Shown one piece after another: positions 18,906 through 58,772 of a DNA stretch of 64,000 nt. This stretch comes from Pseudonocardia broussonetiae (GTDB taxonomy: Bacteria; Actinomycetota; Actinomycetes; Mycobacteriales; Pseudonocardiaceae): the NCBI RefSeq assembly GCF_013155125.1, contig NZ_CP053564.1, forward strand, positions 6,145,501 to 6,209,500, in the 5' to 3' direction. Every line of letters starts with the position of its first letter. The first letter of the stretch is position 1. The position numbers and the translations under genes are program-made. Below the pieces are notes generated by a model, which saw only the letters and a list, made by a program, of their open reading frames with translations, searched no databases and was not told the origin of the DNA.

Positions 18906-18938
18906 CGGTCTCCTTGATCACCCGTGCGTGCCCCCCGA

Positions 18939-18944
18939 CGCTAG
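18939..18944 (-). promoter_or_regulatory. -10 box of diguanylate cyclase copy 2
   Basis: TAGCGT on the minus strand, giving an expected leader of about 25-30 bases ending in AAGGAGA before the ATG at 18905. Confidence 0.4.
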
Positions 18945-19025
18945 CCGAGACGCAGGCACCGCGTCATCCCCGGTCACGAGCTGGTTCCGAACCGTTCCGT
19001 TCGCCGTAGCAAGACGCGATCCTTG

Positions 19026-19043
19026 TTAGGCCGAACAGCCTAA
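19026..19043. promoter_or_regulatory. Inverted repeat in the array upstream region
   Basis: TTAGGC, 6-base spacer CGAACA, GCCTAA. It could be an operator or an RNA hairpin; no protein is implied. Confidence 0.35.
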
Positions 19044-19059
19044 GAACATCGGTCGTCTG

Positions 19060-19069
19060 CAGTCCTTGC
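19060..19069 (+). other. 10-base perfect complement of the tiny-ORF core
   Basis: CAGTCCTTGC is the exact reverse complement of GCAAGGACTG found in seven of the eight tiny ORFs. An RNA covering this site could pair with any of those units. Confidence 0.4.
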
Positions 19070-19302
19070 GGTCCATCCTGACCGCTCACGGCACGCCGTC
19101 GGCGACGCTGATCCCGTGCGCAGGGATCACCGGGTCGATCGTCGCACACGGGGAGGGGAGGCGCGCGTCATCGCCGGTGCCGGCCGCGGGACACCGGGCC
19201 GGGCACGCACGGCGGCCCGCACACCCCTGCGCGTGAACTGCGGAAATGGCGTTCCGCGATCGCGAAACGGACTATTCGACTGATCCAGGAAGGAGGGACG
19301 GA

Positions 19303-19323
19303 ATGAGCAAGGACTGGAACTGA
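19303..19323 (+). CDS. Tiny ORF 1, hexapeptide MSKDWN
   Basis: ATG start, the only ATG in the array, preceded by the strongest ribosome binding site AAGGAGG six bases upstream. Probably the first translated unit of the transcript. Translation is inferred from the start, Shine-Dalgarno and stop layout. Confidence 0.6.
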   Translation: MSKDWN

Positions 19324-19361
19324 ACGGCGACCCCCGGACGCGACGACGAGAGGAGCACGCC

Positions 19362-19382
19362 GTGAGCAAGGACTGGAACTGA
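19362..19382 (+). CDS. Tiny ORF 2, hexapeptide MSKDWN
   Basis: GTG start, Shine-Dalgarno GAGAGGAG about 6 bases upstream, TGA stop. Body identical to unit 1. Confidence 0.55.
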   Translation: MSKDWN

Positions 19383-19423
19383 GAACCGCCCGCCCCGCCC
19401 CCACGCCCCGGAGGGAGCCACCG

Positions 19424-19444
19424 GTGAGCAAGGACTGGAACTGA
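19424..19444 (+). CDS. Tiny ORF 3, hexapeptide MSKDWN
   Basis: GTG start with GGAGGGA about 7 bases upstream. The spacer before it is the most divergent of the internal ones. Confidence 0.55.
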   Translation: MSKDWN

Positions 19445-19485
19445 CCGTCCCCACCACCCGCCCGCACCAGAGGAAGGAGCGCTAC

Positions 19486-19506
19486 GTGAGCAAGGACTGG
19501 AACTGA
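19486..19506 (+). CDS. Tiny ORF 4, hexapeptide MSKDWN
   Basis: GTG start with AGAGGAAGGAG upstream. First half of the 121-bp duplicated pair. Confidence 0.55.
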   Translation: MSKDWN

Positions 19507-19546
19507 TCACCCCGACCGCCGCCCGCACCCACGAGAGGAGCAGCCA

Positions 19547-19567
19547 GTGAGCAAGGACTGGAACTGA
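19547..19567 (+). CDS. Tiny ORF 5, hexapeptide MSKDWN
   Basis: GTG start with GAGAGGAG upstream. Its preceding spacer is nearly identical to that before unit 7. Confidence 0.55.
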   Translation: MSKDWN

Positions 19568-19606
19568 CGACCCGCACCCCGCCCCGACCAGAGGAAGGAC
19601 GAGCCA

Positions 19607-19627
19607 GTGAGCAAGGACTGGAACTGA
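19607..19627 (+). CDS. Tiny ORF 6, hexapeptide MSKDWN
   Basis: GTG start with AGAGGAAGGA upstream, the same spacer type as unit 4, 121 bp away. Confidence 0.55.
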   Translation: MSKDWN

Positions 19628-19667
19628 TCACCCCGACCCCCGCCCGCACCCACGAGAGGAGCACGTC

Positions 19668-19688
19668 GTGAGCAAGGACTGGAACTGA
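19668..19688 (+). CDS. Tiny ORF 7, hexapeptide MSKDWN
   Basis: GTG start with GAGAGGAG upstream, the same spacer type as unit 5, 121 bp away. Confidence 0.55.
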   Translation: MSKDWN

Positions 19689-19716
19689 CCGCAAGCACCC
19701 CGACGAGAGGAACGCC

Positions 19717-19737
19717 GTGAGCAAGGACGGGAACTGA
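19717..19737 (+). CDS. Tiny ORF 8, variant hexapeptide MSKDGN
   Basis: GTG start with GAGAGGA upstream after a shortened spacer. TGG is changed to GGG, so Trp becomes Gly: the only body change in the array. Possibly a decaying terminal copy. It ends 4 bp before the convergent transporter stop codon. Confidence 0.5.
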   Translation: MSKDGN

Positions 19738-56966: not shown

Positions 56967-58772
56967 TCAGAAGGGGGTGTTCGACAGCCACCACATGTAG
57001 ACGTCGGCCGGGTCCGGGCCCGCGGCGAACCCCTGGATCATGGACGTCCGCGTGCCCCAGGCGACGACGTAGCCGGTGCTGCCGTCCTCGAACGTCGTCG
57101 TGCCGCAGACGAGGTCGTAGCCCGCGTACTCGACCGAGGCGTCGCCGCCGATGGCGCAGTCCTCGTCCTCGCCGGTGGTGTTGGTGTCCACGGTGGTGAG
57201 CGAGGCGGCGTAGGTCCCGACGTCGCCGAACTGCTGGAACACCAGGATCGGCACGGCCGTGGCGTCGTTGGAGGTGCAGCGGATCTGCTCGGTGGCCTCG
57301 TCGGTGATCGGGATGTCGGTGCAGGTCTCGGCGTAGAAGCCCTCCGGCTCCAGCCGCGCGAGCAGCGGGCTCGACGGGTCGGCCGGGGTGACGCCGGGGT
57401 CGCCGCCGGCGTCGGAGGTGTCGGAGACGACCGGGTCGGTGCCGGTCGGGGTGCTGCCGCGGGGCCAGAACACGATCCCGGCGACGACCAGCGCGACGAC
57501 GAGCGCGGCGGCGCCGAGGATCACGGGCAGGCGGTTGCGGCGGGCCGGGGACGGGGTTCCGCTCGACGAGCCGCCGTACGGCGGCTGCGAGCCGTAGCCC
57601 TGCTGGCCGCCGTGGCCCTGCTGTCCGCCGTGGCCCTGCTGTCCGCCGTAGCCCTGCTGTCCGCCGTAGCCCTGCTGTCCGCCGTGGCCCTGCTGGCCGC
57701 CGTGGCCCTGGGGTGGTCCGTAGCCCTGCTGCGCGTGCGCCGACGGCGCGTAGGTCGGCGCGGGGGCCCCGGCCGGCGGGCCGTAGCCGGTGCCCGCGGG
57801 CGGCCCGACCCGCGTCCGGCCGGGGGGCGGGGTGTGCTGGGGCGGGGAGTACTGGTTCCCCCAGCCGGTCGGGGCCGCGGGCTGGGGCTGCCCGGGCCAG
57901 GCCGGGGCCGCGGACGCGCCGCCCGGGTGCACCTGCGTGCCCGGCGCCGCGGGGGGCGCGCCGGTCACGGCCGCCGTCGCGGCCGCCGCGAACTCGCCCG
58001 CGGTGGCGTAGCGCTGCTCGGGGTCCTTCGCCATGCCCCGCGCGACGACGGCGTCCAGCGCCGGCGGGACGCCGGGCACCGTCCGGCTCGGCGCGGGCGG
58101 CTCGGTGGACAGGTGCGCGTGCATCAGCGCCGGGCCGCTGACGTGCGCGAACGGCCCGCGCCCCGTGATCAGCTCGACCAGCACGCAGGCCAGGGCGTAG
58201 ACGTCGGAGCGGTGATCGACGCGGTCGCCGAGGAACCGCTCGGGCGCCATGTAGCCGAGCGTGCCGACGGTGGCGCCCGTGGCGGTGAGCGCGGAGTCGC
58301 GGGAGCCGTCGACCGCGCGGGCGACGCCGAAGTCGGCGAGGTAGGCGAAGTCGCCCGTGACCAGCACGTTCGCCGGCTTCACGTCGCGGTGCAGCAGCCC
58401 GCTGGCGTGCGCGGCGTCGAGCGCGCTCGCCACCTGTGCGACCAGCGCCACCGCCCGCGACGGGGCCAGCGGGCCCTCCTCGGCGAGCACGGCGGACAGG
58501 TCGCGGCCGGTGACCAGGCGCATGTCGAGGAACAGCCGGCCGTCGATCTCGCCGAAGTCGTGGATCGGCACGATGTGCGGCTCGGTCAGCCGGGACGCGA
58601 TGGCGGCCTCCTTGCGGAAGCGCGCGCGGAAGTCCGGGTCGGCGGCGAGGTGGGCGGGGAGGCGCTTGAGGGCGACGATGCGGTCGCGGCGCGTGTCGTA
58701 CGCCCGGTACACCTCGCCCATCCCGCCGCGCCCGACCAGCTCCTCCAGCCGGTACGGCCCGAACTGCTCCAT
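56967..58772 (-). CDS. Membrane Ser/Thr protein kinase (PknB-like)
   Basis: The 601-residue kinase has a full catalytic domain (1-270) with GRGGMGEVY, the lysine in [25 protein letters not shown] and GYMAPERF. A Pro/Gly/Gln-rich linker (about 275-425) contains six-residue [12 protein letters not shown] repeats. One transmembrane helix (about 431-453) leads to an extracytoplasmic domain with four cysteines (CTDIP, RCTSND, DCAIGG, LVCGTTT) that could form two disulfides. There are no PASTA repeats, so the signal differs from classical PknB. ATG 58772 follows GGGAGTGG. The gene interrupts the his series. Confidence 0.92.

Follow-up and report, generated by a model that had tools for sequence, protein, structure and literature searches.

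Tandem micro-ORFs paired with a sensor-type diguanylate cyclase in Pseudonocardia broussonetiae: a candidate micropeptide signalling system

Peptide quorum-sensing cassettes of Gram-positive bacteria include Rap-Phr, Rgg-SHP, PlcR-PapR and arbitrium. Very short translated open reading frames (ORFs) with a Shine-Dalgarno (SD) element, known as minigenes, can also serve as regulatory elements. The biarylitide precursor genes, about 18 bp long, are reported to be missed by automatic detection (PMC13417212). For c-di-GMP, the input signals of many enzymes and of several sensors are unidentified according to two sources (PMC8846402, PMC6205966). The former names MASE1 among putative sensory domains without a discernible physiological purpose, and the latter describes control of Streptomyces development by c-di-GMP through BldD.

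We analysed a window of 64,000 nucleotides from Pseudonocardia broussonetiae, in which a first-pass annotation had described a tandem array of eight MSKDWN genes, each with its own start, stop and ribosome binding site. The positions and codons given for the eight 21-nt units at 19303-19737 proved accurate: one unit starts with ATG and seven with GTG, all eight end in TGA, and a purine-rich SD element lies ahead of each. Identity of the peptide held for seven units only, since unit 8 reads MSKDGN through a TGG>GGG change and is probably decaying; the body AGCAAGGACTGGAACTGA is exact in 7/8 units. Start-to-start spacing is 49-62 nt. The spacers were said to vary around constant units, and they are diverged (TRF, period 61: 74% matches, 8% indels), with the 21-nt body nearly constant. 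A chance origin of the window array is excluded: at no more than 3 mismatches there were 8 matches in the window and 0 in 100 shuffles of it. The core AAGGACTGGAACTGA, at no more than 1 mismatch, occurs 8 times in the genome, always within the array. Elsewhere in the window, an 18-bp tandem repeat at 57591-57731 (7.8 copies, 88% matches) is perhaps a coding repeat.

Table 1. Features around the micro-ORF array, with positions in the 64,000-nt window
Feature	Position	Strand	Description
Second sensor-type diguanylate cyclase (DGC), 433 aa	16164..17465	-	81 nt beyond first DGC
Cognate DGC, 452 aa	17547..18905	-	Head to head with array; Pfam GGDEF PF00990 138.8 bits
Intergenic region	18906..19302		Between DGC and array; conserved blocks, five aligned genomes
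Micro-ORF 1	19303..19323	+	ATG, MSKDWN; SD AGGAAGGAGGG directly 5' of start
Micro-ORF 2	19362..19382	+	GTG, MSKDWN
Micro-ORF 3	19424..19444	+	GTG, MSKDWN
Micro-ORF 4	19486..19506	+	GTG, MSKDWN
Micro-ORF 5	19547..19567	+	GTG, MSKDWN
Micro-ORF 6	19607..19627	+	GTG, MSKDWN
Micro-ORF 7	19668..19688	+	GTG, MSKDWN
Micro-ORF 8	19717..19737	+	GTG, MSKDGN (TGG>GGG)
MFS transporter, 425 aa	19742..21019	-	Convergent; Pfam MFS_1 80.3, MFS_3 34.2 bits; candidate exporter

The divergent partner of the array, a DGC with a membrane sensor, and the spread of the system through the class lie beyond what the first-pass annotation had in view. The DGC consists of an N-terminal membrane sensor of approximately residues 1-258, for which a hydropathy scan indicates some six hydrophobic segments up to residue 260, followed by a GGDEF domain with an intact GGEEF motif. 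The family signature G338, G339, E340, E341 and F342 is invariant in 42 aligned rows. The window sensor has a weak likeness to Pfam MASE9 (20.9 bits, under the cut-off of 24.3); MASE9 was matched at E<=0.01 in 2/20 sensor family members, and a sequence search found no relative of the sensor domain with a solved structure.

Micro-ORFs were scored as encoding 5-9 aa with Trp among the last three residues, on the divergent strand of 900 nt taken, preceded by a run of 5 or more bases shared with an SD reference string. The detector admitted only ATG or GTG starts and TGA, TAA or TAG stops and allowed up to 2 peptide differences; it favours conserved units, and its Trp requirement was fixed after the first peptides were known. 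The 158 sensor-DGC regions comprised 89 of the 100 order matches listed and 69 of the 110 class matches listed, with some closely related genomes and one DGC counted twice (L195, L244; neither with a match). A Trp micro-ORF was detected on the divergent strand in 88/158 regions and on the opposite strand in 0/158; 70 regions had none by this criterion. Twenty shuffled sets of the 158 regions gave a mean of 1.15 matches and a maximum of 3. With a looser SD threshold (4), 91/158 regions matched on the divergent and 1/158 on the opposite strand (shuffle mean 6.15), and with a stricter one (6) the figures were 74 and 0 (shuffle mean 0.7).

In a gene control restricted to genes with 500 nt or more of sequence upstream, a Trp micro-ORF preceded 28/52 DGC-cluster genes vs 0/159 other called genes. 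Among GGDEF genes that lack this sensor, 0/20 had one; these came from three genomes of Pseudonocardia and were 20 of 43 listed matches. The micro-ORFs pair specifically with one DGC sensor class. The same criterion detected no Trp micro-ORF for the second DGC of the window. A third sensor-type DGC of this genome (G000:C1:1024186-1024947) has no micro-ORF detectable upstream.

Larger neighbourhoods (the window, L076-L079 and L110-L129) contained 29 detected Trp arrays, 28 of them in divergent orientation to a GGDEF gene that shares the N-terminal sensor domain. The exception, MRVLRWS/MLRWS at L111, was a repeat artefact away from any DGC and was removed before codons were counted. The gene caller was crude, missing the DGC of L113 and misplacing small ORFs in L114 and L127, and the DGCs at these loci were confirmed separately. 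In one genome (G325, L114) three arrays occur, and each faces a separate DGC paralogue head to head. Single micro-ORFs accompany additional DGC paralogues beside array-bearing ones: MRGHDWG at L126 and MRNRDWT at L118/L123.

Codon usage was assessed in 90 arrays comprising 467 units. Starts were ATG in 263 and GTG in 204, the detector admitting no other, and stops were TGA in 407, TAA in 31 and TAG in 29. The first-pass annotation had proposed that synonymous variation with a kept peptide in relatives would prove coding, and this is what the relatives revealed. Because the detector is biased toward conserved units, Trp codons were excluded from the test, and a mild bias stays. Distinct variant codons were 75 synonymous vs 34 nonsynonymous, against an expected synonymous share of 0.21 (p=7e-27), that is, about 21% synonymous under single-base change. 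From position 3 up to the Trp the counts were 39 and 7, and 26/34 nonsynonymous variants fell at codons 2, 7 and 8. Seven arrays mix AGY and TCN codons for Ser (six AGC/TCC, one AGT/TCN), between which no single-base route exists. Among five genomes with MLRGVTWI/T, the common residues vary at third bases only (GTG/GTA/GTT, GGC/GGT). Judged by this codon pattern, the micro-ORFs look translated and subject to selection at the level of the peptide.

Among relatives, the peptide changes clade by clade with the start-SD-stop form retained. An MSKDWN-type pattern matched 6/62 same-genus genomes, 5 of which, our own included, have arrays: MSKDWN in our own genome and G309 (P. oceani), and MGKDWN in G297, G122 (P. 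hydrocarbonoxydans) and G237; the arrays of the two named species are syntenic. The remaining genome (G332) had a single two-mismatch match, which was chance-like and set aside. In G309, one unit stops with TAG instead of TGA, and the last unit, the apparent counterpart of micro-ORF 8, would on sequence comparison be a degenerate unit too. The three MGKDWN arrays have an extra first unit, MTGKDWN, which is one codon longer and keeps the frame. In G313, the MRGKEWR array (L054/L129) is followed after its last unit by a short tandem repeat of the TGAATGGCGC type, which derives from the unit 3' end and is apparently a slippage product.

A strict tandem pattern matched 1/297 genomes of the family sample, our own alone; it missed family relatives because their peptides vary by clade. 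Relatives were recovered by a locus-based search through the MFS orthologue, which is present in 49/62 same-genus genomes. At 27/30 loci retrieved in this way (our own included), an array adjoins the MFS gene, in the intergenic position that it has in the window; the peptides at these loci include MRNHNW, MRNKSW, MRNKNW, MRGKNW, MRGKEWR, MRNRSW, MRAKNWT and MRGKQWG. Where no array lay by the MFS gene, two loci were at contig edges in genomes with arrays on other contigs (L066 and L069, with arrays at L115 and L077), and in one genome (L065) the array is approximately 3 kb off at another DGC (L126). A Trp-stop pattern matched 23/390 family genomes, 20 inside the genus and 3 outside, and its reversed-pattern control had no match in the family genomes. 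The tandem pattern had 0 matches in viral contigs. A match in Peregrinibacteria (L017) was a sequence without the micro-ORF form and was taken as chance.

An MRNHNW array with its own DGC is carried by plasmid NZ_CP080522.1 (Pseudonocardia sp. DSM 110487), to which the L113 contig corresponds. The PLSDB gene table, known to be incomplete, lists no MFS gene in the 7.7 kb around this array and no gene over the array itself, which falls in a gap. The plasmid segment is at 63899-68184 (L310), and an MRGKNW array lies on the largest contig of this strain (G319). The array-DGC module can be located on different replicons.

Of 200 genomes from the order, 45 have the sensor domain (residues 1-258) at E<=1e-15; a 20-row profile detected it in 79/345 class genomes at E<=1e-10. 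A phylum sample that included class members yielded matches in 3/296 genomes (our own, a weak one in the class and a weak one outside), and the distribution of the domain is therefore patchy. Micro-ORFs with an SD element, in tandem or single, lie upstream of sensor DGCs in other families of the class. Peptides beyond the genus include MNNHGW, MTVVNWS x7, MNSNSW x7, MRSRDW, MRDNTWT, MRDTTWS x12, MLRGVTWI/T and MSSGVQWV/I. Some regions without the Trp type have non-Trp micro-ORFs: MSSRDF x10, MRNRES x5 and MNGRED, the latter in five genomes. The 85 distinct Trp strings, some of which are alternate-start forms (MMRDNTWT, MMRANSWD, MSPMRGQNW) and some perhaps chance matches (MPAPW, MLHAEWP), tend toward M-R-[GND]-x-[NST]-W-(0-2 residues), the Trp being demanded by the criterion. 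Arg stands four residues ahead of the Trp in 48/85.

Peptide distance followed sensor distance. Across 57 dereplicated loci, thinned from 71 with a micro-ORF out of 113 sensor domains, peptide distance correlated with sensor distance at r=0.63 and with GGDEF distance at r=0.49. The partial correlation for the sensor given GGDEF was 0.45 (p=0.0005), and that for GGDEF given the sensor was -0.06. In a same-locus control on 18 loci, thinned from 21, with a second sensor-type DGC lacking a micro-ORF, the peptide correlated with the cognate sensor (r=0.63, partial 0.65, p=0.0002) and not with the sensor of the second DGC (r=-0.01), whose orthology is uncertain at L117, L121, L127 and L128, where it differs from that of the window by 51-60%. 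Identical peptides were found with sensors differing by up to 47%. The co-variation may stem from linked inheritance of array and DGC instead of co-adaptation; given this and the non-orthologous second DGCs that are also possible, it backs recognition without proving it.

The MFS gene of the window ends 4 nt past the last micro-ORF stop. An MFS-like match lay in the flank of 55/88 regions with a Trp micro-ORF and 30/70 regions without one; by Pfam, MFS proteins are encoded in the window and at L299 and L304, while L308 has a single open frame covering both MFS and GGDEF. Among f31 regions with a Trp micro-ORF, 0/14 had an MFS match in the flank examined. As MFS matches are present at some loci and were not detected at these f31 regions, export by this route is plausible and not universal. 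Neighbours common across genera are the DGC and MFS genes, with housekeeping genes such as dxs added inside Pseudonocardia. Pfam found no P450 among six window proteins and none among ten selected proteins of other loci.

At f31 loci L294-L298, the DGC gene has an ABC-F-like gene as its neighbour on one side, and a paralogous gene pair lies beyond the micro-ORF; a sixth f31 neighbourhood (L307) has no micro-ORF. By Pfam, the pair in L294 is dynamin-like with an SSB gene between, and the ABC-F-like gene was identified in L294 and L297. The ABC-F-like gene may be EttA and the dynamin-like pair may be DynA/B. These f31 neighbours (ABC-F-like, dynamin-like and SSB genes) hint that the system may be connected with cell division or sporulation.

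Between DGC and array, the window and four Pseudonocardia relatives share conserved blocks around CCGAACAGCCTAAGAAC and GTCGGCGACGCTGATCCCGT. A nearly invariant block with the core TAACGATGTGTAACACAATAGTTGCGGAGTGTGCG occupies the corresponding position, between DGC and micro-ORF, at six f31 loci (L240, L249, L253, L257, L260 and L262), and some conservation extends past the core in the six aligned genomes. This f31 block is a possible shared promoter or operator. In the window, consensus scans found no sigma-70-type promoter in the array region and no recognisable terminator in the array. Operator-like palindromes upstream were inconsistent over the 38 arrays examined. Rfam gave 0 matches at gathering in the window and one sub-threshold match upstream of the array (E 0.25).

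Very stable hairpins, to -43 kcal/mol, lie within tens of bases 3' of several single-copy micro-ORFs, and at five MNGRED loci a GGCTCCCGGCCGGGAGCC hairpin lies approximately 20 nt 3' of the stop. Hairpins reaching -25 kcal/mol were present at 32/88 loci vs 9/88 in one shuffle each; median energies differed little, at -21.75 kcal/mol after the last unit, -20.15 kcal/mol 200 nt further on and -18.75 kcal/mol in shuffled sequence. The hairpins after some single-copy micro-ORFs are in part as expected for stand-alone genes.

We consider it rather probable that the array is a dose-amplified gene for an unprocessed micropeptide, a ligand of the divergent DGC sensor that sets c-di-GMP and is exported via the adjacent MFS. 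The array would encode the mature MSKDWN directly, or SKDWN after removal of the first Met, and the repeated units would amplify the dose. The micropeptide would be the cognate ligand for the membrane sensor of the head-to-head DGC, and its binding would set the c-di-GMP output of that enzyme. Where an adjacent MFS is present, it would probably export the peptide, which would then serve as a pherotype-like, self-specific signal; at loci lacking the MFS, the peptide may work intracellularly or exit through some other route. Peptide-level codon selection, pairing with the sensor class and co-variation with the sensor are direct observations, and to these we add, by inference, binding to the sensor, the sign of the effect, export and a developmental function. 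More tentative is the extension to the whole class, in which 5-9-codon Trp pheromones would each be private to their own DGC sensor, with copy number as the dose and MFS as the exporter; we regard this as a serious possibility that falls somewhat short of probable.

Several other explanations were weighed. The micropeptide could act intracellularly on the expression of the divergent DGC or on its assembly into the membrane, for example by way of a regulator that binds between the two genes, without being the sensor's ligand, as the conserved blocks within the head-to-head intergenic region and the f31 regions without detected MFS would allow. We judge this unlikely, though worth keeping in mind, because the peptide tracks the sensor and neither GGDEF, after correction for the sensor, nor the second DGC, and because the 20/20 GGDEF genes without the sensor have no Trp micro-ORF. 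The first-pass annotation had offered three roles, a peptide signal, a RiPP precursor, and an RNA or ribosome titrator, and the signal fits best. A RiPP origin, in which an enzyme encoded close by or at another locus would modify the hexapeptides for export as a natural product, is improbable: the conserved Trp, the repeated copies and the frequent nearby MFS suit it, and the 18-bp biarylitide genes offer a precedent (PMC13417212), but no modifying enzyme recurs among the neighbours examined, where, for selected proteins scanned with Pfam, those shared across genera are DGC and MFS and the f31 set differs. Peptide-level selection disfavours an RNA element or minigene array that titrates ribosomes, tRNA-Trp or an RNA with the peptide irrelevant. 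Synonymous changes are tolerated with the peptide kept, Ser codons of the AGY and TCN types are mixed, and many loci have a single unit, so that this role appears quite improbable despite the strong SDs, the many copies and the known effects of minigenes.

A leader peptide or attenuator of a downstream gene, to which a short ORF with a Trp codon might point, is very improbable: the next gene in the window (MFS) is opposite in strand, as is the next called gene in Pseudonocardia neighbourhoods with MFS, and strong hairpins follow some single-copy micro-ORFs. The least credible reading is a plain tandem DNA or protein-binding repeat that resembles ORFs by accident. Units are identical within some arrays (L123, L062), but the window spacers are more diverged than the ORFs, single-copy forms exist, and codon-respecting changes run through the 90 arrays; a plain repeat, which the first-pass annotation had already thought unlikely, is refuted by the codon pattern.

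The micro-ORFs represent a gene class overlooked by annotation, as in the gap of the PLSDB table for NZ_CP080522.1. If the ligand reading is true, they would be among the shortest conceivable signal genes and, as far as known, would provide the first ligand class for a MASE-like DGC sensor and the first peptide-to-c-di-GMP quorum system of such design. With dozens of sensors and putative ligands of 5-9 residues that are cheaply synthesised, the question of DGC input becomes directly testable. Given the c-di-GMP/BldD control known in Streptomyces, the micropeptide system could feed into sporulation of filamentous actinomycetes. A term search of open-access literature (titles and abstract starts) found no description of such arrays or of a DGC paired with a micropeptide; of six peptide strings, MRNKSW alone matched, in one paper, in work on T-cell receptors.

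Compared with minigenes, the micro-ORFs are alike in being very short with an SD element and differ in that selection acts on the peptide sequence and no same-strand gene lies downstream in the window. With the biarylitides they share a gene length of about 18 bp that eludes automatic detection (PMC13417212); they differ in their DGC partner, their tandem copies, the lack of a recurrent modifying enzyme among the neighbours examined and a Trp near the C-terminus with variable neighbours. Like MASE-type sensors, the DGC joins a multi-helix N-terminal membrane domain, weakly MASE9-like, to a GGDEF protein, but it scores under the MASE9 cut-off and is coupled to a micropeptide gene that would suggest a ligand class. 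A further parallel is with the quorum-sensing cassettes, in which a short peptide gene likewise stands beside a presumed receptor gene and clade-specific peptides track the receptor. Here the DGC gene adjoins the peptide gene, and the DGC would be the receptor. Unlike those cassettes, the micro-ORFs have 5-9 codons without precursor, leader or processing site, which leaves no room for a signal sequence and sets them apart from precursors with a secretion signal; they often form tandem arrays, and the presumed receptor is a membrane DGC, not a cytosolic regulator or kinase. In function, the micropeptide-DGC system may resemble peptide quorum sensing.
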